Part shown: positions 9,298-39,414 of the stretch, piece by piece
Layout of the letters: each line of letters starts with the position of its first letter
Numbering within the stretch: the stretch's first letter is position 1
Source of the DNA: Kiritimatiellota bacterium
GTDB taxonomy: Bacteria > Verrucomicrobiota > Kiritimatiellia > CAIQIC01
Direction of reading: 5' to 3'
Assembly: GCA_026398385.1 (NCBI GenBank)
Contig: JAPLSZ010000122.1
Coordinates: 1 to 39,798 of the forward strand
DNA length: 39,798 bases
Made by a program: the position numbers and the translations under genes
The notes under the pieces: model-generated
Told to the model about the DNA's origin: nothing
Seen by the model: the letters and a program-made list of their open reading frames with translations, nothing else
The model's database searches: none

Positions 9298-10518
9298 TCA
9301 GGGCTGCGGCGGCGGTTCGTGCGGCGCGGTGGGGCGGGGGGCGTCGCGGGCGGCGTCCCAGTAGGGCGAGATGCGGCGGAGGCTGGCGACGACCTCCGGA
9401 AAGACTTCGATCACCCGGTTCACCTCCGTGGCGGTGGTGTAGCGGCTGAGGCTGAAGCGCACGGAGCCATGCATGGCGGTGAAGGGCACGTGCATGGCCT
9501 TGAGCACGTGCGAGGGTTCCAGCGAGCCGGAGGTGCAGGCGGAACCGCTGGACGCGCAAATACCGTGTTCGTTGAGCTGGTAGAGGATGCTCTCGCCCTC
9601 GATGTAGTGGCAAGCCAGGTTGAGCGTGTTCGGCAGCCGCGGGGCGTCCCGGCCATTGACTTCCAGGTACGGGATCCGCTGCACCAGGGCGGCTTCCAGC
9701 TTGTTGCGCAGCCCGCGGATGCGATCCACGTCGGCCAAATGCAAAGCCGCCAAGCGGCACGCCTCGCCCAAAGCGACAATATAGGGGACATTCTCCGTGC
9801 CGGCGCGGCGGTTGTTTTCCTGATGGCCGCCGATGAGCAGCGGGCGGATCGGCGTGCCGCGCTTGCTGTACAGCGCGCCGACGCCCTTGGGCGCATGGAG
9901 CTTGTGACCCGAGAAGCTCAACAGGTCCACCTGCTCAAACTCCGCGGTGAGGTCCACCGGTATTTTGCCGATGGCTTGCGTGGCGTCGGTATGGAAGACG
10001 ATGGCCGGATTGGTTTCGTGGGCGATGCGGGCGAGTTCGGCGACGGGGAAGAGCACGCCGGTTTCGTTGTTGGCATGCATGATGGTCACCAGCAGCGTGT
10101 CGGGCCGCAGCGCCCGGATATACGCATCGCGGTCGAGCTGGCCGCTGCGGTCCACAGGCAGGAAGGTGACCTCGTAGCCCTGCCGGGCCAGGTCCTTGCA
10201 GACCTCGAGCACGGCGGGATGTTCGACCGCCGTGGTGAGAATATGGCGGCGCTGCGGCTGGGCGCGGGCCACGCCGCCGATCGCCCAGTTGTTGCTCTCC
10301 GTGGCGCAGGAGGTGAAGGTGATCTGGTCCGGGGTAACGCCGCCGAGCAGGGCAGCCACCTCGCGGCGCGCGTTGTTTAGGGCGGCGGAAATCGGGCGCG
10401 CCTGCTCGTACGCCGAGCTGGGATTGAAATACTGATCGGTCAGAAACGGCGTCAGGGCGGCCACCACTTCCGGCGCTATAGCCGTGGTGGCGTTGTTGTC
10501 CATGTAAATAGTTTTCAT
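9298..10518 (-). CDS. nifS: Cysteine desulfurase NifS
   Basis: 406 residues. PLP-dependent enzyme that takes sulfur from L-cysteine for Fe-S cluster assembly. The N-terminus MKTIYMDNNATT is the family signature. The PLP-binding Lys is in SFSGHKLHAPKG (about residue 205), the cofactor-contacting His in TTAVEHPAV, and the catalytic Cys in SSGSACTSGSLEPSHVL (about residue 330). RAGTENVPYIVALG is also typical. A Pro-rich tail of about 20 residues ends the protein. It starts 6 bases after the nifU stop, so the two are co-transcribed and probably coupled. NifS/NifU pairs of this kind serve general Fe-S assembly in many anaerobes that do not fix nitrogen; no nif structural genes are here. Confidence 0.95.
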   Translation of the reverse strand: MKTIYMDNNATTAIAPEVVAALTPFLTDQYFNPSSAYEQARPISAALNNARREVAALLGGVTPDQITFTSCATESNNWAIGGVARAQPQRRHILTTAVEHPAVLEVCKDLARQGYEVTFLPVDRSGQLDRDAYIRALRPDTLLVTIMHANNETGVLFPVAELARIAHETNPAIVFHTDATQAIGKIPVDLTAEFEQVDLLSFSGHKLHAPKGVGALYSKRGTPIRPLLIGGHQENNRRAGTENVPYIVALGEACRLAALHLADVDRIRGLRNKLEAALVQRIPYLEVNGRDAPRLPNTLNLACHYIEGESILYQLNEHGICASSGSACTSGSLEPSHVLKAMHVPFTAMHGSVRFSLSRYTTATEVNRVIEVFPEVVASLRRISPYWDAARDAPRPTAPHEPPPQP

Positions 10519-10524
10519 GGGGGG

Positions 10525-11439
10525 CTAGACCGCGATGACCCGCAAGTGTTCGTTAATTTCTTCCTTCAACGTGCGTTCGACCATCATCTTGCAGGCGCCG
10601 GTCAGCCGGCAATAGACCAGGTCGTCCTTGACGTCCACGACTTCGATGTCGCCGCCGTCGTGTTGCAGGGCGGGGCGGATGGATTGGGCGACCACCTGTT
10701 CGATGTGCTTGTATAACTGAAACGGCGACGGCTCGCCGGGGGCCGCGGCAGCCGGCAGGGCAGGGGCTGTGCCGCCGGACATGGGTTTGCGGCCCCAGGC
10801 CTCGTCGAGCAGATCCTGCAGACCGCCGGGCGCATGATGACAGGAGGCACAGGCGCCGCCCGCTTTGATGGCGTTGGTGATGTCCGGAATCGTCCGCAGG
10901 TTGAGCTCCTTGATCTTCCGGCGGATGTACGGCTCGGTGACCGAAAAACATTTGCAGACGATGCGGCCATCGTCTTCGCCCTTGGTCTGGAGTTGCACAC
11001 CGGCCTGCGCCAGATCCACGCCCCGTTTCTGCGCCCAGTTGTAGACGGCGGATTCCAGCGCCTCGGCGCCCATCACGGAACAGTGGATTTTCTGCGCCGG
11101 CAGGCCCTCCAGGAACCGGACGATGTCCTGGGTGGTGATCTTGAGAGCGTGGATCGGCGTGAACTGACCCTGTTCGATGAGCGTGCACAGCGCTTCCGAC
11201 GCCGCGATGGCCGAGGTGCAGCCGAAGGTCAGGTAACGGGCCTCGGTAATGACGTCCTGCAACGGGTCCGTGGCATGCTTCCGGACGCGGAAGGAGAAGC
11301 GCAGGGCGTCGCCGCACACGATCGAGCCGTGTTCGCCGAACCCGTCGGGTTTCTCGATCTCGCCCATGTGCGTGCCGGGCTTGCCGTGCACGGCATCCAT
11401 GAAAATCTGCCGCGTCTTTTCGCTATATTCCCAAGCCAT
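10525..11439 (-). CDS. nifU: Fe-S cluster scaffold NifU (three-domain type) with altered Nfu motif
   Basis: 304 residues from ATG 11439, preceded by ACGGAGAA. Residues 1-125 are the IscU-like scaffold with its three cysteines (SIVCGDALRF, YLTFGCTSAIA, KIHCSVMGAEAL). Residues about 155-205 are the BFD-type [2Fe-2S] domain (VCKCFSVTE ... GGACASCHH). Residues about 225-304 are the Nfu domain (IRPALQHDGGDIEVVDV). In that last domain the usual C-x-x-C is missing: the sequence reads RLTGACKMMVERTLKEE, with a single Cys and apparently a few residues deleted. The scaffold and central domains look intact. It is first in a two-gene operon with nifS and has its own promoter at 11467-11495. Confidence 0.93.
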   Translation of the reverse strand: MAWEYSEKTRQIFMDAVHGKPGTHMGEIEKPDGFGEHGSIVCGDALRFSFRVRKHATDPLQDVITEARYLTFGCTSAIAASEALCTLIEQGQFTPIHALKITTQDIVRFLEGLPAQKIHCSVMGAEALESAVYNWAQKRGVDLAQAGVQLQTKGEDDGRIVCKCFSVTEPYIRRKIKELNLRTIPDITNAIKAGGACASCHHAPGGLQDLLDEAWGRKPMSGGTAPALPAAAAPGEPSPFQLYKHIEQVVAQSIRPALQHDGGDIEVVDVKDDLVYCRLTGACKMMVERTLKEEINEHLRVIAV

Positions 11440-11466
11440 GGTGTTCTCCGTTGAATCGCTGCAGCT

Positions 11467-11495
11467 AGCATACCGCATCCGACCGCGGATTCCAA
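11467..11495 (-). promoter_or_regulatory. Promoter of nifU-nifS
   Basis: On the minus strand TTGGAA (11495-11490) and TATGCT (11472-11467) are separated by exactly 17 bases. Transcription would start near 11460, about 20 bases before the nifU ATG at 11439, leaving room for the ACGGAGAA ribosome site. The region is divergent with the CsgG-like gene. Confidence 0.6.
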
Positions 11496-11516
11496 TCGTG
11501 GAATGAGGAAGGCTAG

Positions 11517-11546
11517 TTGACAAAGTTTTTGCTGAGTGCCAGTATG
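11517..11546 (+). promoter_or_regulatory. Promoter of the CsgG/Sel1/metzincin cassette
   Basis: A consensus -35 TTGACA (11517-11522) is followed 18 bases later by AGTATG (11541-11546); TATGAA at 11543 is an alternative at 20 bases. The ATG lies at 11592 behind a strong AGGAGG. The -35 is better than the -10. Confidence 0.45.
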
Positions 11547-11591
11547 AATGTATGGTGTCTGGTACAGCCGGGGAACCGGCAGGAGGCAAGG

Positions 11592-12626
11592 ATGAAGAAA
11601 TTCAGAGCAGCGTTGGTGTGCGCCATGCTGTGCGCCGCCGCCCAAGCCCAATCCAAGGTGGTGGTGGCCTTGATGCCGTTGAGTTCGTCCGATGGCCTGG
11701 AGGCGGAACCGGCCATCGTTTCGCAGGTGCTGCAGGCCAAGCTGTCCGACTCGGCCAACGTCACCCTGGTTGAGCGCGAGCGCCTGCATCAGGCGCTGGC
11801 GGAATTGAAGCTGGGGCAGCAAGGCCTGGTGACGGCGGCATCCGCGGGGCAGCTCGGCAAGCTGGTCGGCGCGCGGTATTTCTGCAGCGGCAGCTTGAGC
11901 AAATCCGGCGACAAAATCATGGCTGTCGCCAAGGTCATTGAGGTCGAAACCACGCTGGTGAAAACGACCTATGCCTTTCTTAAGAACAAGGAAGATGCCG
12001 AGGCCGCGGGCGCCATGCTGGCCGCCCAGCTTGAGCAGGTGATCGCCCGGCTTGAAGCCGAGCGTGCGGAACGCGGAACCATGACCGGGGACGCGAAAGG
12101 GGCCGCCCAGGCTATCCCGGCGGACTGGAAGCGGCCGCGCGTGATGGTGATCATTCGCGAAATGCATGTCCAACATCCGTCCTTGATCGAAATGCATGCC
12201 CGGGCTTTGATCGACCCGGCAGGTGAAACGGAGATCATCAAACGCCTCCTGGGCGCGAACTTCCGGGTGATTGACTCCGAATATGTCCACCTGATGCAGA
12301 GCGATCAATCCGGGGCGAAGCGCTTATTTGGCAGCCTCAAGACCGCCACGCAGCATGCGGCCGCCCGGAAGGCGGACATTCTGCTTTACGGCGAAGCCCT
12401 GTCCGAGCGCGGCGCCGGCCTGGGCGATTTCGAGGGCTGCCGCGGGCGGATCGAACTCAAGGCGGTGCGCACGGACAACGATGAAATCCTGCTGTCCGAC
12501 AGCGCCGAAGGCGGCGCCACGGACCTGGTCGAGGCGGTGGCCGGCAAGAAAGCCATTCAGCAGGCGGCCAACCGTCTGGCCGATACTTTCCTGTATTCCC
12601 TGGCTGCGAAATGGAACAAAAAGTAA
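11592..12626 (+). CDS. Secreted CsgG/FlgO-like protein with two tandem CsgG-type halves
   Basis: 344 residues from ATG 11592, with CAGGAGGC upstream. The signal peptide MKKFRAALVCAMLCAAAQA has a clear A-Q-A cleavage site and no lipobox Cys. Residues about 22-165 resemble the CsgG/TolB-N fold: VVALMPLSS, then NVTLVERERLHQALAELKL, then GQLGKLVGARYFCSGSLS. The pattern NV-VERE-L-L-E--L-----A--G---GA-Y---G is a CsgG hallmark. Residues about 180-344 look like a second, more diverged copy (RVIDSEYVHLMQ ... AARKADILLYGEAL). CsgG itself is an outer-membrane lipoprotein pore for curli; without a lipobox and with two halves this is more likely a periplasmic relative. First gene of a three-gene run whose third member also carries two such domains. 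Confidence 0.72.
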   Translation: MKKFRAALVCAMLCAAAQAQSKVVVALMPLSSSDGLEAEPAIVSQVLQAKLSDSANVTLVERERLHQALAELKLGQQGLVTAASAGQLGKLVGARYFCSGSLSKSGDKIMAVAKVIEVETTLVKTTYAFLKNKEDAEAAGAMLAAQLEQVIARLEAERAERGTMTGDAKGAAQAIPADWKRPRVMVIIREMHVQHPSLIEMHARALIDPAGETEIIKRLLGANFRVIDSEYVHLMQSDQSGAKRLFGSLKTATQHAAARKADILLYGEALSERGAGLGDFEGCRGRIELKAVRTDNDEILLSDSAEGGATDLVEAVAGKKAIQQAANRLADTFLYSLAAKWNKK

Positions 12627-12631
12627 ACAGG

Positions 12632-13475
12632 ATGGAACCGACTGTGTCCGGGACAGCCGCAACCCAATGGGTGGCGGTGGTCGTGGTCGCTCTGCTTGCC
12701 TGTCGTTTCACTTTATCGGCTGGCGCGGCGGAAGAAATAGCCACCTTGCAGGCCAAGAGTGCCGCCGGCGACGCGCGGGCACAAGCCCTGCTGGCGCGTG
12801 CCTATGAGGATGGCGATGCCGGTCTGCCGCGGAATTACAAGGAAGCGGCGCGCCTGGCCCACTTGTCGGCGCAGCAGAACCACCCTTACGGCCTGTTTGC
12901 CTTGGCCCGCCTGTATCAACGGGGGAAGGGCGTTGTGGGCAATGAGGAAATAGCGAAAGGCCTTTTTATCCGTGCCCGGGAGGGGCTTAGGCCTCTGGCC
13001 GAACAGGGCGACGCGGAAGCGCAAGGCAGTCTGGGAGTGATTTATCTGTTCGGTTGGGGCGTGCAGAAAGATGCCGAACTGGCCTTCAAATGGTTACGTC
13101 AGTCGGCTCGCTCTTATGTATAGCGAAGGGGTGGGTGTGGGCAAGAATCCACGGGAAGCGCGGAAGTTGTTTTTGTTGGCGGCCGAACAGAGCGTGACTG
13201 AGGCGATGGCGGCTCTGAGCTTATCGCTCTTACATGGCGACGGCGGAAGTCCCGATCCGCAAGCTGCATTCCGCTGGGTTCACAAGGCGGCCGTGAAAGG
13301 CAATTCCCGTGCCTGCAATAATCTGGGTGTGATGTACGAGAAGGGAACAGCCGTACAGCGTGACGATGCCGAGGCCGTGAAATGGTATCGCCAGGCAGCG
13401 TTGCTGGGCGAACCAAGGGCTGTGAGCAACCTGTCGCGGATGGACGACAAGGGCCAGTTGGGTGACGGACTATGA
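12632..13475 (+). pseudogene. Sel1-repeat protein split by a frameshift/deletion near 13105
   Basis: The first frame (ATG 12632, or 12611 overlapping the preceding gene) has a signal peptide (VAVVVVALLACRFTLSAGA). Three Sel1/TPR-like repeats follow, e.g. ALLARAYEDGDAG and SLGVIYLFGWGVQKDAELAF. It hits TAG at 13121 right after KWLRQSARSYV. The next frame picks up at RLALMYSEGVGVG and gives three more repeats (ALSLSLLHGDG, NNLGVMYEKGTAV) to 13475. At the joint, the helix end KWLRQSA is followed at once by the next repeat's RLALMYSEG, so about eight residues are lost together with the frame. Restored, it would be about 285 residues. Sel1 proteins act as scaffolds for protein contacts, often in the periplasm. 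Either a recent mutation or a sequencing/assembly error. Confidence 0.72.
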
Positions 13476-13517: not shown

Positions 13518-16316
13518 ATGAAACTGGGGTTTATTATACCGGCCTGCCTGGCGCTGGTCTGCGCGGCGGCGGTCCCCGCCGCGGAACGGTCGGCCGTGCT
13601 TTCGCTTTCCGATGTGGCCGATTTTACCCCCGGAGCCAGCCGTCAAGCCGCCGCCGCCTTGCGGCCGCAGATCGTCGCCCGACTGGCCAATGAGTATGAC
13701 TGCCTCGTGCTGAGCCGGGCGAATGTCGAAAGCCTGGCGACGGAAGCCGAGATCCGGCGGCTGGCCGCCCTGGCGGCGGCGCGGCCCGCCGACGCCCAGG
13801 TGTTGGCGGCGGATTATGCCGTGCGCATCCACCTGCGGCCCGCGTCCGAAGGCACGAACATGCTCCTGTCCGTCACGTACAAAGACATCCGGGCCGATGT
13901 GGACAAAAAGACGGAGTATCTGCGGCGGAAAGTGCCCACGCCATCCGTGATGGTGGGACAGAGGAACAGCCGCGATTACCGTTTTGTCGCGGACAGCGCT
14001 GCCGATATGTTGGCGGAGGCGTTGGGCCTGCCCAAGCGCGCTTCACCGCCGGCCGCGGGGGTGGTCAATGCGGCCGCCCGGGGCGCTGTCTGGGCCGTCC
14101 TGCCCTTCGCCAGGATGGATGTCACGCTTCCGGAACCGGCAGCGGAGCAGTGTGCGAGGTTTTTTGGTTGGCGGGCACGGCAGGACGCGCTGCCGGAAGC
14201 GCTGTTTGCCGCCGTGCAACAGGAGGATAGGATTTACTATGGCAAAGAAAGAACGCTGGAGGAGATCCGGCAGGAAGCGGCCAGAAAAAAAGAAGCTAAC
14301 CAACGACAGCCAGTGCCGGCGCGAGCACCGCTTTCGACCGTAATCGACGAGGCTTTGGCGGTGGCCGTGGAGGCCGCGCTCCAGGCGCACGGGCAGGTGG
14401 GTCGGCTGGTGGATCGTGCCCTCATTAAGGCAACCTTGGCGGAGTTGAAATTGAATACGCTCATGGGCGTTAACGAATTCACGGCTGGGCCGGCCGGGCG
14501 GCTGGTGGGCGCCGACTGGTTGCTGATGGGGGCGGTGAGCAGGGAGGCCCAGGGGTGGCGGCTGAACATGCAGTTGGTGAATGCCCACTCCTCCGTCGTC
14601 ATGGATGCGCGCGAGGCCGCGTGCGCAGCAGAGACGGATCTGGCTGACTTGGCGCGCACCTCGGCCCTGCTGCTGGCTGGACGGGCCAGGAAACCGCCGG
14701 CCTTCCCGCCCAGCCCGGCTTGGCAGCGCAGGCGTGAAGCCGGATTCTTTGGCGAATTCCTCATGGACGAACATGGCGATCGCCAATGGAGGCTGGAGAT
14801 ACCGATGCTGAACCGCGTCGAGATCGTGTATCTGCTGCAAGGGGACCAGCCGGAATTGCTTGATGGGCATGTAATCGCCCCGTTGATGCAGATGTTGTAC
14901 CGCTGGGTTTGCCATTTAGATTCGCCTGAAGAAATTGATCCCACCATGGCGGGAGTTGCCACGGCGCTGCTGGACCACTTGCTGTCGTCAGTGGAATACG
15001 ATGGGCCGGTCTATGCTCCGCTGTTGACGCGCGCGCAGGCCTGGGGTTGGGCCGGTTATTATGAAAAGGCCATGGAACTGGCGCAGCGCAGCCTGCGGGA
15101 ATATCCGGGCGCGTCGCCGGGTTGGGCGAAATTCCTGTTGGCCGCCTGTCTTCTCAAATTGGACCGGCCGATGGAGGCCTTGCCGCTGGCGCGCGAGGCG
15201 GCGGATATCTTCGAGCGTGGCATGCGCGAACATTGTGAGTGGGAAGGATACGCTCAGAGGTGCATCTGGCGACTGCTGGCAAATATTGCCCAGGATGATC
15301 GGGTGCGGGATGAAAATCAGGAATTCCGCGCACTGCAACATGAGTTCAAACAACAGCTTGGACTTTGGGCATATGATGTGATGCGGTATCTCATGCTGCT
15401 GAAAAAACGGGAGGGGATGGAAAAGGTCGCGTCGTTGAACCTTACCAAGTTGCGGGAGGAAACGGGGAATGCCGGCCTCATCCCCGTGGAAGCCTTACGT
15501 GGCGACTATCTGCTTCAATGGGGCCGGACGGAAGAAGCCATCCGGGCCTACCAAGCCATTATTGTGGCGTACCCTGGTTATGACGGCATTCAAACGACAC
15601 GGAATTACGGCCGCACCCAATTGACCCGGATCGAGCAACAAACCGGGCGTAAGGGATTGGTGCCGGCGGACGTACATCCCTCCGTGGCCATAAAGGATGT
15701 GTGCCGCATACCGGACAAGTATAAGGTCTACTGTTTTCCGGTAGGCAATGCGGATACCGGTATTGTGTATTATGCTTGCCAAGTGGTGGAAGAATGGTTC
15801 GGAACCAAGGTGGTGATCAAGGATGCCACTCCCATCCCGGTAGGGGCCTTTAACGAGGCTGAAGAACGGCATTCCATGGGAGAATTCTCCCGGCAACTAT
15901 TGCAGAACACAGAGATCCCTGACGACACGTTGTTCACCTTTTACATAACCGGCGAAAAGCTAACGATAATTGGCGGGCAGTCGGCCTTTGCCCACCCTTG
16001 GGGCGGAAATCCGGTGGTTGGTTCGTATTATAATCGGGGCGGTTATCAACCGCAAACCAGCGACAAGCAGGAGCTGGGGCGTGCCTTGGGACAGGGTATT
16101 GCGGTGCAATTCAAGAAATGCATGATTTTCCCGTGCCCGACCGACTGGCTGGGGTGGGAACGTGGTGTGTATTGTAAGAACCCCTTATGCGGTGACACAA
16201 GTAATTTATGCTCGGCTTGTGCCCAAAAATACAAAGCCAATTTTGAACAGTGCCACCGGGCTCTGCAGAACTTCAAAAAGCTGCCCTTCAAAATGCTGAG
16301 CTGGCAATTCGACTAA
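13518..16316 (+). CDS. Secreted CsgG-like / TPR-like / archaemetzincin-like fusion with degenerate zinc site
   Basis: 932 residues; ATG 13518 has ACGGAGA about 10 bases upstream. Signal peptide 1-21. Residues about 25-170 and 185-390 each resemble CsgG/TolB-N domains (YDCLVLSRANVESLATEAEI; VGRLVDRALIKATLAELKL then GRLVGADWLLMGAV). Residues about 495-710 are helical and TPR-like (TRAQAWGWAGYYEKAMELA; ALRGDYLLQWGRTEEAI). Residues about 735-932 match archaemetzincin: CQVVEEWFGTKVVI, LFTFYITGEKLT, GGQSAFAHPWGG, then QELGRALGQGIA where HExxHxxGxxH is expected, KKCMIFPC, LCSACAQKY and a final helix. The Glu is kept, but all three zinc His are replaced (Gln, Arg, Ile); several Cys of the structural zinc site remain. 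Probably a non-catalytic metzincin fold. I know no described protein with this architecture. Confidence 0.7.
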   Translation: MKLGFIIPACLALVCAAAVPAAERSAVLSLSDVADFTPGASRQAAAALRPQIVARLANEYDCLVLSRANVESLATEAEIRRLAALAAARPADAQVLAADYAVRIHLRPASEGTNMLLSVTYKDIRADVDKKTEYLRRKVPTPSVMVGQRNSRDYRFVADSAADMLAEALGLPKRASPPAAGVVNAAARGAVWAVLPFARMDVTLPEPAAEQCARFFGWRARQDALPEALFAAVQQEDRIYYGKERTLEEIRQEAARKKEANQRQPVPARAPLSTVIDEALAVAVEAALQAHGQVGRLVDRALIKATLAELKLNTLMGVNEFTAGPAGRLVGADWLLMGAVSREAQGWRLNMQLVNAHSSVVMDAREAACAAETDLADLARTSALLLAGRARKPPAFPPSPAWQRRREAGFFGEFLMDEHGDRQWRLEIPMLNRVEIVYLLQGDQPELLDGHVIAPLMQMLYRWVCHLDSPEEIDPTMAGVATALLDHLLSSVEYDGPVYAPLLTRAQAWGWAGYYEKAMELAQRSLREYPGASPGWAKFLLAACLLKLDRPMEALPLAREAADIFERGMREHCEWEGYAQRCIWRLLANIAQDDRVRDENQEFRALQHEFKQQLGLWAYDVMRYLMLLKKREGMEKVASLNLTKLREETGNAGLIPVEALRGDYLLQWGRTEEAIRAYQAIIVAYPGYDGIQTTRNYGRTQLTRIEQQTGRKGLVPADVHPSVAIKDVCRIPDKYKVYCFPVGNADTGIVYYACQVVEEWFGTKVVIKDATPIPVGAFNEAEERHSMGEFSRQLLQNTEIPDDTLFTFYITGEKLTIIGGQSAFAHPWGGNPVVGSYYNRGGYQPQTSDKQELGRALGQGIAVQFKKCMIFPCPTDWLGWERGVYCKNPLCGDTSNLCSACAQKYKANFEQCHRALQNFKKLPFKMLSWQFD

Positions 16317-33509: not shown

Positions 33510-35861
33510 TTATTCGGGCTTTGGCCAGATCGACTGCATCTGCCAGGCATCGAGCTTTTTCAGCACGGCATCCTGTCCCTGGGCACGGACAGAAACGCCG
33601 ACACTGTCTTGACGGCCCGGATAGACTCGCATGGCGAGGTATTGTCTCCCATGGGCGAAGACCTCGACGACGCTACGGTCGATAAAGACCCTCAGCTTCA
33701 ACATCTCACCGCCCCGCTCCATCTCGGCTCGCTCGGGCGGCCTGACCCACACATCGGGGAGCGTGCTGGAGCGCGCCCCATCCAAGCATACAACACCCCG
33801 CGTATCGTACCAGAAACTCAGTTTCTTGTCGTAGTTGTAGAAGGTGATGGAAGTCTGCTCTTCGGCATGGGGAGAGCGCAAGACATTCAACTGCACCCAG
33901 TGGGACATCTTGGGGTCGATCTCCACCTCCAGTTCCATCGTGTTGCCCTTGATCGCCTGCAAGACAATCTCTTCATTGGCGGGGATCACAGTTTCACCAA
34001 CATGCTGGTGGCCCCCCCGCAGGGAGGCAACGGCGGCTACCGGTTCGATTCGGAGTAGTTTGTCCGGGCCGAGGGTCAGCCGCTGCGTCAGGGACATCAT
34101 CTGGTCCCAATCATCACTGGGCTTGCCATGGTTGAAGTTGAGAATGTTGAGGACACCGCCATTGCCGTCAGCGGCTGTTCTTGGCGCATGGACTCCTCCC
34201 GGAGCGACGGTGCCGTGATTGAAGCGGCCGTGTTCATAGGGCCTGAATTTGTGGAGTGTCTTGTCGTAGTCGCCCAGAAAATACTGGCCGCCGTTGGAAT
34301 GACTGAAGAAGCTCAGGATGTACTTGTCGCCGATGGGCTGGAAATTGGGACAAGCCCCGTCGTCACGCCGGGCGGTTAGAGGCGTCTTCGGATCCTCAAT
34401 GAACCCCCCCAGACCTTGCCAGGTGACCAAATCTTTCGACGCCCACAGATTCATCTGGGGCCACCATATATTCGGGCGATAATCGACTTTCTGCCCCGTT
34501 AAACCGTAGTAGGTGTCATTCTCTTTCCAGATACAGGAATCCCCTAACTCGGTATTGACAGGCCCGCGCTTCTCCCAATTCAACAGCAGGGGATCCTTTG
34601 AAACGGCCACCATTTGGCCCGCGCCCATGCCAGGATAGAACGCGATCACCCGGGCCTTCTCGACCAACATGCCGCCTGAATAGCACGCGCTCTCGATGCC
34701 CGGATTGATTGCGTAGGGCAGGTCTTGCCAGTGGACCAGGTCGTCGCTGACCGCGTGTCCAATGGATGTCCGAAGCCAGCGTTTCAAAACATCCGCCGGA
34801 TTGGGGAACTCGTCGGGCGGCATGGCAATGAAGAAAAGATGCCATCGTCCCTGCCAGAAGACGAGGGCGTTGGGATCGTTCATCGAGCTTTCCGGGCTAA
34901 CGTAGTGATAGGCCGGCCGATAGCGGTCGACGGCCAGCTTCTTGCGCGACTCGGCGAAGCGGAGCATCAGGGCGTTGGTCTTTAGCTCCTTCTCCTGCTC
35001 CGCCAGGGTTTCGGAGAACACTTGGCGCGGCACAGGGGACGGAAACCTTTCCGGCACGGGTATGCTGGGCATGGGCGTGACATTCAGCATGGCGTCCAGG
35101 CTGGGCACGGAGTCGATGGCGACGGAGTAAGTGCCGGCGTCGGATATCTTCGCGTCGCTGATGCGGTAGCTGGCGTCCGTCGCCCCGGCAATGGGCTGGC
35201 CATCTTTGCGCCATTGGAATGTTCTCGCGGCCGTCGTCGGGACGCTGAAGGTGAAATCACTTCCTGCCGCAATGGTGCCGCCGGCAGGCCGGGCGGCCAT
35301 CGCGCCTGCCACGACCACTGGCCGACCCTTAACCGTAATATCCGCACCCTGCCCGGTGCCGCGTCCCAAGGAATAATGGACGTTGATCACCATGTTGCCG
35401 GGTGCCGTCCAGCCCACGACCAACCCGGATGGAGGGGCCCCGTCTTTGGGGTGGAACAGCACTTCGCCCGGCGCCCACTTGGTGCCGTTTCTGGTCGAAT
35501 ACAGCTCTCTGCCAGTGAGGTTCCTGCCAATTCCCCAGTAGCCCGCGGCGTCGCTCCACATCAGCGGCGGAGCGGGGAAATCCGAACCCCACAGCGCGTT
35601 CGCATCCCGCTTGGCCGAGGGCAGCAGGGGAAAGGCATGAGGGCTATTGGTAAAGTCGTCCAGCCGGTAGGACCAGGTGCTGTTGGTGCGGTTGTCAGTA
35701 TAGGAGAAATCTCCGGCCAGCGAGTAGGTCATCACCGGGGCGGTCTGCTGCCGCTCGGCGGGCGGGCGCGTGTGGCCGTTTTCGGCGGCGTGCAGCGCGG
35801 CCGAGCCCAGAGCGATCGCGGCGCCCAGCAGCGCCGCCTTGAGAAAAAGCGTTCTTTTCAT
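33510..35861 (-). CDS. Secreted GH32-like glycosidase with N-terminal beta-sandwich and Ig-like domains
   Basis: 783 residues from ATG 35861 (CAGGAA just upstream); the frame is open further upstream but this start gives the signal peptide MKRTLFLKAALLGAAIALGS. Residues about 45-190 are a beta-sandwich with LMWSDAAGYWGIGRN and VVGWTAPGNMVINVHY. About 195-262 is Ig-like (FQWRKDGQPIAGATDASYRI, DAGTYSVAI). GH32 follows: SSMNDPNALVFWQGRWHLFF (nucleophile Asp kept), LGDSCIWKENDTYYGLTG at the place of R-D-P, RRDDGACPNFQPIGDKYIL at the place of E-C-P, and the C-terminal sandwich with VFIDRSVVEVFAHGRQ. The acid/base Glu before Cys reads Ala. A divergent GH32 whose substrate is unclear; fructan is not assured. 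Third gene of the operon. Confidence 0.85.
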   Translation of the reverse strand: MKRTLFLKAALLGAAIALGSAALHAAENGHTRPPAERQQTAPVMTYSLAGDFSYTDNRTNSTWSYRLDDFTNSPHAFPLLPSAKRDANALWGSDFPAPPLMWSDAAGYWGIGRNLTGRELYSTRNGTKWAPGEVLFHPKDGAPPSGLVVGWTAPGNMVINVHYSLGRGTGQGADITVKGRPVVVAGAMAARPAGGTIAAGSDFTFSVPTTAARTFQWRKDGQPIAGATDASYRISDAKISDAGTYSVAIDSVPSLDAMLNVTPMPSIPVPERFPSPVPRQVFSETLAEQEKELKTNALMLRFAESRKKLAVDRYRPAYHYVSPESSMNDPNALVFWQGRWHLFFIAMPPDEFPNPADVLKRWLRTSIGHAVSDDLVHWQDLPYAINPGIESACYSGGMLVEKARVIAFYPGMGAGQMVAVSKDPLLLNWEKRGPVNTELGDSCIWKENDTYYGLTGQKVDYRPNIWWPQMNLWASKDLVTWQGLGGFIEDPKTPLTARRDDGACPNFQPIGDKYILSFFSHSNGGQYFLGDYDKTLHKFRPYEHGRFNHGTVAPGGVHAPRTAADGNGGVLNILNFNHGKPSDDWDQMMSLTQRLTLGPDKLLRIEPVAAVASLRGGHQHVGETVIPANEEIVLQAIKGNTMELEVEIDPKMSHWVQLNVLRSPHAEEQTSITFYNYDKKLSFWYDTRGVVCLDGARSSTLPDVWVRPPERAEMERGGEMLKLRVFIDRSVVEVFAHGRQYLAMRVYPGRQDSVGVSVRAQGQDAVLKKLDAWQMQSIWPKPE

Positions 35862-35949
35862 AATTCCTGTCTTTTCTTCTAACAAACACTCCATCATGGA
35901 CGCGCCCAAAAATAGCTGGCACTGCCTCGGGAGAAGATACCCTTCTCCG

Positions 35950-38900
35950 TCAACGATGCAGGCCTCCATAGTTCAACAGATTGCGCAGCAGCCGTTCGGC
36001 TGCCGGATGGGAGCCGAGGGTTTCGCGGATCAGCAGGGTGTTCAGGATGAACCGCCCGCTACCCGATTTGTATACCGCCAGCATCAAGCCGGACGAGTAG
36101 TCCTGCGAGGCTTTGATGGCACCGGCCACAGCCTCGGCGGGCGGATCCTGACCTGCCAACACCAGGCCGGGAATGATCTCGCGATAGAATGTATAGTCCA
36201 TCAAGCCGCCGCTGGGCAGGCCGTCGAAGATCGGATGGCGCTTGGCCCACTCGTCCTTCAAATAAAGCCCGCCCCACATATCCAAGTAGGAACTCGATCC
36301 CTTGTTCGCCAGCGGCAACCAACCGAACGGATGATCGCCCTTTTTGAGAACCTCCGGCGCCAGGAAGATGGCCGTCGCTCCGCGCTGAACCCGCCGCCAC
36401 AGTTCCTCGAGCGCCGGCGTCGCAGGCGGCGTCTTGGAAACGAGGATCACCTCGCGCGGCGTCGCCTCGCCGGCGGCTGTTAGCGTCCGGCAACGAATGC
36501 CGTGCTCGCCGAGCCACTTCGCCAACCCGGCGTCATCGCCGGCCAGCACGACCTCGGTCTTGACCGCCGGCATGTCGGCCGGATCGGTCACGTAGAACCC
36601 GGTCTCGCCGCCCGTCGCGGCGGCACCGTGTTCGAAGGAGGCGAGAAAACGGTAGCGTCCGGACGGGCCATTCACGACCACGTCTTCCGCGAAGATGGGC
36701 AACGCCAAGGGCGCTTCTTTCTCTGCAATGGTCACGCTCACGATCTTCTCGAAGATGCGCTGGTTTTGCGGTCCGACCACCAGCAGTTTGACCGGATAGT
36801 CGCCGGGTGCCAGCGCGTCTTCGTTGGCCAGCACCGCCTCGAAGCGGATGCGTGCGCCCCGATAGACATTGACCGGTTCGGCGAACAGGCACAGCCGCAA
36901 CGGCGCGAGGCCCTCGAACATCGCGTCCACCGTGCCGGGCTTCAGTTCGCGGAACGTCGTGGTTAGCCCTTCGCCGCAACTGACGTGGTCGTTCATGCCG
37001 GTCAGGCTGTAACCGACGATGTTCGGGTTGGCGCGAATCGCATTGAGGCCGAGCGTGCGCTGGCCGGCCATCTTGCGCAGGCTTTCGGCGAAGAAATCCT
37101 CCGGGCGCGCATATAACTCGTCGAGCTTCCACTGTTTCCAGTCTGCTAGATAGCGGTCCAGCTTGTTCCGATAGAACCGCGCGTCCTCGCCCTCGGTCTT
37201 GCCGAGTCGCTCGAAGTGGCGGGTCGTGCGCCAGAGGTCCACCGCGCTGCCGATCCCGTATTCTGACAGGAATGTGCACGGGCGCTTGGAGTACACCGTC
37301 TCGCCTGCGGTGCCCGGCAACAGCATCGTGCCTCCGCCTGCACTGCGCAAGGCCTGAACCGTGCCCGCCGTGTGCGGCACGCGCGGGTAGCGGTGCTCGT
37401 CGGCCACGGGATCCGCCCATTCGACCGACCCCGGATTGGCCAGGGTGCCCGAACGTCGCTGTCTGACTTTCAATTGCACGTAGCGGGTGAAGGTGGCCGT
37501 GTTGGGCTTTTCGCCCGGCACGAGCCAACCGCTCGACCATGGCCCGGCGGGATTCTGCCCGTGGGGGAACTCCGCAGCCAAGTCGAACACGCGGCCTGCG
37601 GCGGATTTGATGGTCGCCGTCAGCGCCGTGCTGTCGCTGCCGTAGTACCCGTCTCCCCGGCCAACCACGAAATCAATGGTGTCATCCTTCGCCAAGGCCA
37701 ATTCGCCCGTGTGTGTGGCCGTGTTAGGCTTGCCACCGATGTTGAGTTCCGCGTCAAACCGCGGCCGGCTGTTGTGGAGGATATGCACGTCGGTGGTGGC
37801 CTTCGCCAAGCCGTCGAACCTGGCGGCGAATTGATAGCGACCCTCGGCCGGTGCCGTCCAGCGGACGACGCTGTATTGGCCATGAGGTCCCGGATGCAAC
37901 GCCACCTGCCGCGGTGGCCAGGTGAAATTAAACGGCGTGGGGACCGGTTGGTCGGAAGGGTTGCGTGCAGCCCACGGTTCGCGATCGGCCGGGCTGCGCC
38001 AAACGTCGAGTTTCGAGAATACTTCGTCGCCCGCATCTCCCCCGCCCGTCTCATCATAGCGACCGCTGTTGAGAAACACCATGCGTGTCGGGTCGAGCTT
38101 GCGGACCAGCGGTAGCGAGTTCGCCGCGAGCCAGAAATGCGGCGTGGCCTTGACCTCGTTGAGGAGACCCCAGATCACCACGCTCGGATGATTGCGGTCG
38201 CGGCGGATCAACTCGGAGATCGAGCGTTCCCAACGCTCGGCCAGTTGCGGCGAGTCCTGTATCGGCCACGACGCGAACGATTCTTCATAGACCATCAGCC
38301 CGATCTCGTCGCACAGGTCGAGCTGATACCGCTCCGCACCGCCCCAGATGAAGCGGATCATGTTGAAGCCCATCACCTTGAGGTCTAACAAATCGCGCCG
38401 GGCCATGTCGGGATCGGGCGGCAGCTTCAGGCCGACCGGGAAATGATTGCAGGTGTGCGTCGAACGCAGGAAAACGCGCCGGCCATTGAGGCGGAAATAG
38501 CCATTCTCGAAGCGGAAGTCACGGAAGCCGCAACGCACCGATTGTTCATCATCGCCCAAACGGGCAGTGACGCGATAGAGAAACGGATCGTTCAGCTCCC
38601 ACAGCCGCGGCTGGTCGAGATTCACCTCGGCCTCAACCCGCGTGTCGCCCGGCGGCAGTTCCCGCTCGATGGCCACCTCGCGCAGCGTTTCGCCGCTGGC
38701 CGCAGGCGCAACGGTGAACTCCAGGCGGCCGCGCGAATTCTTGATAGACGCGTTGCGCACGTTGGCTTGAATCCTGATCGTGCCGGTCTTCGGGTCGGCT
38801 TGCGCGAAGAGATCCTCCACCCGCACCGCCGGTGTGGCTAACAACTCCACCGATCCGGTGATTCCGCCGTGGTTGTATGCCGCGCCCGCGTTATAAGGAA

Positions 38901-39414
38901 TCACGCGGGCCTGCTTCGGCGTTTCATTCAGCACGATGCCATCAATCCGCTCGTGGCTCGGGTTGAGCACGCGCACCGCCAGCAGGTTTTTCGCGCCGGC
39001 GCGGATGGAGTCGGTAACATCTATCACAAATGGCGTTTCGCCACCCTCGTGCCCGCCGACGCGCATGCCATTGAGCCAGACTTCCGCCAGATAATCCACC
39101 GCCCAGAACCGCAGCAGATGCCGCCCGCCCGCATGCGGATTGGTCGGCGCTTCGAACTCGCGCCAGTACCACGCCACGCCGTGGTAGCCGGGGAACGCGT
39201 CCTGGATGATCCACGGCACTTTCGTCGGCTTCGCCCCGGGAACCGGCACGCCGGGCCACTTTTGCTCGCGCCCCTCGTTTTTCGGGTCGGTGGCCAACCG
39301 CCAAGCGTCGCCGTCGAGCGTGAGCATGGAACCCGCCACGTCGGCCATCACGGCATGCGCCAGCAGCATCATTCCGAACGTCAGCATCCCTAACAGTTTC
39401 TTGTTTGTCTTCAT
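35950..39414 (-). CDS. Secreted GH2 glycosidase with inserted beta-sandwich and C-terminal amidotransferase-like domain
   Basis: 1154 residues; ATG 39414 has AAGGAAG just upstream. Signal peptide 1-24. Sugar-binding jelly roll about 30-195 (AEVWLNGMRVGGHEGGETPF), Ig-like GH2 domain about 195-300, barrel from about 300. Acid/base Glu420 is in NHPSVVIWGLLNE. Nucleophile Glu718 is in TFLSEYGIGSAVD. Between them (about 495-645) lies an extra module with VALHPGPHGQYSVVRWTAPA, LNIGGKPNTATHTGELALA and DGYYGSDSTALTATI. The last about 170 residues (REVILVSKTPPATPALEELW ... RFILNTLLIRETLGSHPAAE) resemble the glutamine-amidotransferase-like domain seen at the end of other GH2 relatives. Activity could be beta-galactosidase, beta-glucuronidase or similar. 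A paralogue lies directly upstream. Confidence 0.88.
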   Translation of the reverse strand: MKTNKKLLGMLTFGMMLLAHAVMADVAGSMLTLDGDAWRLATDPKNEGREQKWPGVPVPGAKPTKVPWIIQDAFPGYHGVAWYWREFEAPTNPHAGGRHLLRFWAVDYLAEVWLNGMRVGGHEGGETPFVIDVTDSIRAGAKNLLAVRVLNPSHERIDGIVLNETPKQARVIPYNAGAAYNHGGITGSVELLATPAVRVEDLFAQADPKTGTIRIQANVRNASIKNSRGRLEFTVAPAASGETLREVAIERELPPGDTRVEAEVNLDQPRLWELNDPFLYRVTARLGDDEQSVRCGFRDFRFENGYFRLNGRRVFLRSTHTCNHFPVGLKLPPDPDMARRDLLDLKVMGFNMIRFIWGGAERYQLDLCDEIGLMVYEESFASWPIQDSPQLAERWERSISELIRRDRNHPSVVIWGLLNEVKATPHFWLAANSLPLVRKLDPTRMVFLNSGRYDETGGGDAGDEVFSKLDVWRSPADREPWAARNPSDQPVPTPFNFTWPPRQVALHPGPHGQYSVVRWTAPAEGRYQFAARFDGLAKATTDVHILHNSRPRFDAELNIGGKPNTATHTGELALAKDDTIDFVVGRGDGYYGSDSTALTATIKSAAGRVFDLAAEFPHGQNPAGPWSSGWLVPGEKPNTATFTRYVQLKVRQRRSGTLANPGSVEWADPVADEHRYPRVPHTAGTVQALRSAGGGTMLLPGTAGETVYSKRPCTFLSEYGIGSAVDLWRTTRHFERLGKTEGEDARFYRNKLDRYLADWKQWKLDELYARPEDFFAESLRKMAGQRTLGLNAIRANPNIVGYSLTGMNDHVSCGEGLTTTFRELKPGTVDAMFEGLAPLRLCLFAEPVNVYRGARIRFEAVLANEDALAPGDYPVKLLVVGPQNQRIFEKIVSVTIAEKEAPLALPIFAEDVVVNGPSGRYRFLASFEHGAAATGGETGFYVTDPADMPAVKTEVVLAGDDAGLAKWLGEHGIRCRTLTAAGEATPREVILVSKTPPATPALEELWRRVQRGATAIFLAPEVLKKGDHPFGWLPLANKGSSSYLDMWGGLYLKDEWAKRHPIFDGLPSGGLMDYTFYREIIPGLVLAGQDPPAEAVAGAIKASQDYSSGLMLAVYKSGSGRFILNTLLIRETLGSHPAAERLLRNLLNYGGLHR

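Follow-up and report, generated by a model that had tools for sequence, protein, structure and literature searches.

A secreted CsgG/LpoB-TPR fusion protein of Kiritimatiellota ending in a remote archaemetzincin domain without zinc histidines

Architecture of the fusion and descent of its C-terminal domain

The window, a 39,798-nucleotide stretch of Kiritimatiellota DNA, encodes a secreted protein of 932 residues (13518..16316; this and all window features below lie on the + strand unless marked otherwise), delimited by its open reading frame and its full-length homologues, whose last part raises the question of what a protease-like domain lacking its zinc histidines descends from and what it might do. 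From N- to C-terminus, the fusion comprises a signal peptide, two CsgG/LpoB-like domains, a TPR array and a pseudo-archaemetzincin domain. The signal-peptide-like N-terminus (residues 1-22; 13518..13583) is recognised from the sequence and coincides with a helix at residues 6-18 of the AF2 model; by eye, no clear lipobox is present in the fusion or in the product of its partner gene (see below). The first CsgG/LpoB-like domain (about residues 24-175; 13587..14042) was identified by hhalign, matching the second domain with a probability of 86% (E 4.8e-6) and the partner domain with 63%. The second (about residues 190-392; 14085..14693), which holds an insertion specific to the window copy at about residues 205-275, matches the partner at 96.9% (E 1.7e-10) and Pfam CsgG below the cut-off (E 0.0045; 16.8 bits against 20.8), while one fusion homologue, L067, exceeds the Pfam LpoB cut-off (25.4 against 22.3). 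The TPR-like helical array (about residues 400-710; 14715..15647) is supported by Pfam TPR_12 (E 5.7e-5), by TPR structures that an 11-row full-length profile matched in the PDB and by helices spanning residues 401-709 of the AF2 model. Signal-peptide-like start, hhalign and Pfam thus agree with the earlier note in describing a secreted protein with two CsgG-type domains and a TPR region. With a pLDDT of 56.6 and a pTM of 0.38, the full-length AF2 model did not reach the quality that a fold search needs.

The C-terminal domain, about residues 733-932 (15714..16316), is a remote archaemetzincin (MEROPS M54) by descent, as the earlier note had suggested for the last 200 or so residues. Specifically, a four-row profile of the archaemetzincin part matched AfAmzA (4axq) in the PDB at E 1e-5, and the 11-row full-length profile matched AfAmzA at E 1.3e-9 and 2x7m at E 1.9e-6. 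In profile-profile comparison by hhalign, the fusion domains aligned with 20 intact archaemetzincins over 172 columns at 98.8% (E 7.7e-17), whereas a negative control of the archaemetzincin against the CsgG parts stayed below 1%. L071 (HETSHMLTMRHC), a secreted archaemetzincin with its active site intact, was likewise picked up by the four-row profile (E 1.6e-9), and this protein passes PF07998. In line with these matches, an AF2 model of the domain of moderate confidence (pLDDT 66.6, pTM 0.69), built from eight sequences, returned archaemetzincins as its five best Foldseek matches in the PDB, with E-values between 1.2e-4 and 9.4e-4 and TM-scores, normalised by query length, of 0.31-0.46, so the structural match to M54 on which the earlier suggestion depended is present. 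Less sensitive searches were silent: the window protein did not match PF07998 in Pfam or any NCBIfam model, NF033824 included (a model that intact L071 matches below its cut-off), and a single-sequence PDB search with the C-terminal domain found nothing.

Lost histidines and a retained cysteine site

In the window domain, no histidine stands at any position aligned with HExxHxxGxxH, whichever register is taken. The multiple alignment places HExxH over V863-Q864...C868, and the HMMER alignment of AfAmzA with the four-row profile places it over about Q859-G860-I861; the two registers lie some 4 residues apart, and both lack histidine. The loss of all three zinc histidines, claimed from the sequence at the outset, is therefore borne out. 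The earlier note had further equated QELGRALGQGIA with HExxHxxGxxH and concluded that the glutamate and glycine stay. The homologues disagree with that register: QELGR (residues 851-855) precedes the HExxH position by 8-12 residues. The degenerate active-site helix (residues 850-870, QELGRALGQGIAVQFKKCMIF; 16065..16127), defined by the alignments and an AF2 helix, begins at residues 847-850 in the AF2 models, which makes QELGR its first turn, and in metzincins HExxH sits further along the helix than that. Retention of Glu and Gly is thus unsupported.

A Cys4 site is retained (C886-x4-C891...C898-x2-C901; 16173..16220), its four cysteines being invariant in an alignment of 11 homologues. Of the two cysteine motifs proposed earlier, C-x-x-C (898-901) stands, while KKC-M falls because C868 belongs to a variable insertion, and CKNPLC (886-891) supplies the conserved C-x4-C instead. 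Only the homologue in genome G120 lacks the Cys4 site, so zinc would not be essential everywhere. The Met-turn methionine (C-x-M) is absent from the window copy, which reads C891-G-D there, and is kept in G153 (CIM) and G184 (CMM). Additionally, the window insertion carries an extra cysteine pair, C868/C873, and cysteine also occurs there in G315c2 and G437c2. This pair would speak for a different enzyme, in which other residues (for example C868/C873 and C886/C891) bind metal in a new active site; such an enzyme is very unlikely, as most homologues lack the extra cysteines and the four invariant ones correspond to the structural site of M54 (PMC3427221).

Recurrence of the fusion, its neighbours and its relatives

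Searches with the window domain alone of Pfam, the PDB, contigs from GTDB and from viruses, phages and plasmids had no hit, and they brought up no kin in the closest 145 genomes. A phylum-wide search, however, found three tandem homologues in G315 (E 3.4e-10 to 2.3e-7), which are full-length kin with identical domain order (blastp E 5e-39 to 6e-26), and searches from these copies added G437 (three copies), G436, G153, G184, G248, G318 and G256. Within the window's own class, G120 has the fusion and G033 an N-terminal piece of one. In total, 14 pseudo-archaemetzincin domains from at least ten genomes have a common architecture of signal peptide, two CsgG/LpoB-like domains, TPR and pseudo-archaemetzincin, with PA14 in one G315 copy and CBM9 in two. 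The fusion, an architecture unfamiliar to the earlier note, therefore recurs, and since HExxH is absent from 14/14 of these domains (10 genomes), the window copy is not merely a mutated member of an intact family.

The fusion also has a recurrent neighbour. The partner gene (11592..12626) encodes a secreted protein with tandem CsgG/LpoB-like domains that exceeds the Pfam cut-offs for both CsgG (35.3 bits) and LpoB (25.3 bits). Its identity with the corresponding gene ahead of the homologous fusions is 53% for G315 and 56% for G436. Partner and fusion adjoin in eight genomes (the window's, G315, G436, G184, G248, G318, G256 and G120), a count that leaves out G437, whose contigs are too short; the partner is also present in G033, where the contig end cuts the fusion, whereas G153 has none within 15 kb of its fusion. 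Between the two lies a Sel1-repeat gene in the window (12611..13475; assigned from open reading frames, Pfam and its place, which is that of the TPR gene of homologous modules) and a TPR-like protein in G184, G248 and G256, so that a TPR or Sel1 protein occupies this interval in at least four genomes. The Sel1 gene spans two overlapping frames, 12611-13123 and 13071-13475, with a break near 13100 due to a frameshift, a small deletion or an assembly error. Elsewhere in the window, a class V aminotransferase gene adjoins a NifU-like gene with a BFD-like [2Fe-2S] domain (9301-11589, - strand) as a NifS/NifU-like pair, and genes of glycoside hydrolase families 32 and 2 adjoin each other (33513-39414, - strand).

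The pairing of adjacent genes that both carry CsgG/LpoB-type domains would speak for a secretion or outer-membrane channel, with the CsgG-like partner as pore and the fusion as periplasmic cap or cargo adaptor. We regard such a channel as distinctly unlikely: LpoB scores better than CsgG for the partners of G315 and G184, the G315 and window partners match the LpoB model TIGR02722 weakly, and no clear lipobox is seen. Small CsgG-like lipoprotein genes form clusters in L113 (4327-9119), L115 (3358-5853) and L116 (5043-9046), each flanked by a gene for a CsgG-like protein rich in fibronectin-III-like repeats; one of these clusters belongs to the window's own genome. Considered as cousins of the module, they were rejected, archaemetzincin being absent from them.

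In the phylogeny, the fusion domains (13 in the tree) form one clade (support 99/93; 99/91 without the active-site columns) that adjoins the intact secreted archaemetzincins (96/81), apart from two other groups lacking the histidines, one short and secreted (n = 15) and one TPR-fused (n = 6). The active site may have been lost once for all three groups or several times, a single loss not being rejected (AU p 0.34). The window copy sits on a long branch (1.9), its domain is 18-26% identical to the other members, and the first HMMs built from the short and TPR-fused groups had no significant match to the window. The low identity, together with the G120 copy that lacks even the Cys4 site, would speak for a decaying, functionless remnant. 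Against decay, G184 and G248, the one pair measurable with enough synonymous change, show a dN/dS of 0.09 for the archaemetzincin part, against 0.089 for the remainder of the protein; in addition, the order of domains and the neighbouring genes are conserved, and G315 keeps three tandem paralogues. A remnant is thus scarcely credible, and the domain appears, from this one pair, to be under purifying selection. Taken together, the recurrence of domain, scaffold and partner and the purifying selection make it probable that the dead archaemetzincin domain has been reused as a module for binding and is not simply an enzyme that broke.

Other archaemetzincins of the phylum were also surveyed. Intact ones of about 300-420 aa are common elsewhere in the phylum (L129, L133 and L117-L128, with a signal-peptide-like N-terminus in L129 and L133). 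Among the sampled relatives, HExxH is absent in 13/15 proteins above the PF07998 cut-off, for which an automatic protease annotation would be wrong. The short secreted group (about 200-300 aa; L007, L009-L017, L019, L020, L023, L024 and L031) occurs in numerous genomes belonging to the window's class; C-P-N-P-x-C-x-M...C-P-P-C is well conserved in it, and most members pass PF07998. The TPR-fused proteins (L004, L005, L114, L134, L136 and L018) are mostly 400-435 aa, although the open frame of L018 runs to 900 aa. In L134 and L136 the second active-site histidine alone survives, so that the two resemble intermediates. The phylum also offers a natural series from intact through partly lost (L134, L136) to fully lost sites, in which non-proteolytic roles of the fold can be studied.

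Putative role and comparison with known systems

Few metzincins are as poorly understood as the archaemetzincins. For the secreted, non-catalytic form described here, we lean towards a protein or peptide docking module that ends a CsgG/LpoB-TPR scaffold and works with the partner protein, a proposal built on sequence comparison. In particular, the Cys4 site may still hold a structural zinc that stabilises the fold, the empty groove or the surface of the domain would bind a partner, and the fusion and its neighbours would assemble as a periplasmic or outer-membrane complex, which the PA14 or CBM9 copies would link to cell-surface or matrix glycans. The earlier note had offered a scaffold and a peptide-binding sensor side by side. 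In a sensor, the former substrate cleft would bind unfolded or secreted peptides and signal through the TPR/CsgG part, and the fold it would need is kept, by Foldseek and profile-profile comparison; TPRs, moreover, often bind peptides. However, the loops bordering the former cleft vary more than any other part of the domain and are modelled with the lowest confidence (pLDDT under 50 for domain residues 104-133 and 159-175), and a recognisable output domain is absent. A sensor is therefore rather unlikely, and a scaffold fits the anatomy better. More speculatively, and again rather unlikely, secreted archaemetzincins would have given rise in this phylum to three separate families without histidines (short secreted, TPR-fused and CsgG-TPR-fused) that supply the binding subunits for an envelope complex not yet described, perhaps as pseudo-protease partners of the intact secreted archaemetzincins.

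The fusion domain shares with AfAmzA and MkAmzA (M54, PF07998, NF033823) the fold, the order of strands and helices and the C-x4-C...C-x2-C site, and the fusion homologues share an N-[FY]-V-[FY]-G-like stretch. Unlike these proteins, the window domain has neither HExxHxxGxxH nor the Met-turn methionine, is secreted and belongs to a family of 800-1290-aa fusions in which it is C-terminal. The intact secreted archaemetzincins (L129 and L133 type, about 300-420 aa), sister clade of the fusions, likewise have a secreted M54 domain, yet they carry a complete HExxHxxxxxH and Cys4 and have no CsgG or TPR part. With CsgG/LpoB (PF03783, PF13036, TIGR02722), fusion and partner have tandem domains of the same type in common, whereas the window fusion stays under the Pfam cut-off and has no clear lipobox.

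The earlier statement that known archaemetzincins are stand-alone proteases is not supported: the phylum has many intact, apparently secreted ones, the NCBIfam model NF033824 is titled 'non-proteolytic archaemetzincin-like protein', and CarG of Myxococcus xanthus is a proteolytically inactive archaemetzincin acting in transcription (PMC3427221). CarG, reported to carry Gln in place of the active-site Glu (PMC3427221), works through binding CarD and cannot do without its four cysteines (PMC3427221, PMC4374960), which provides a precedent for a dead domain serving as a docking surface. A 2024 review of inactive metallopeptidases does not mention M54 or archaemetzincin on a text search (PMC11266112), and we found no published description of the secreted module formed by the conserved fusion and its partner gene. 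Like CarG (NF033824), which uses the fold for protein-protein interaction, the fusion domain is an inactive archaemetzincin that keeps Cys4; CarG, however, is a 170-residue transcription factor partner, while the fusion domain of the window has lost His, Glu and Met and is secreted and fused. Because pseudo-archaemetzincins are already known from CarG, what is new here is a conserved, secreted form.
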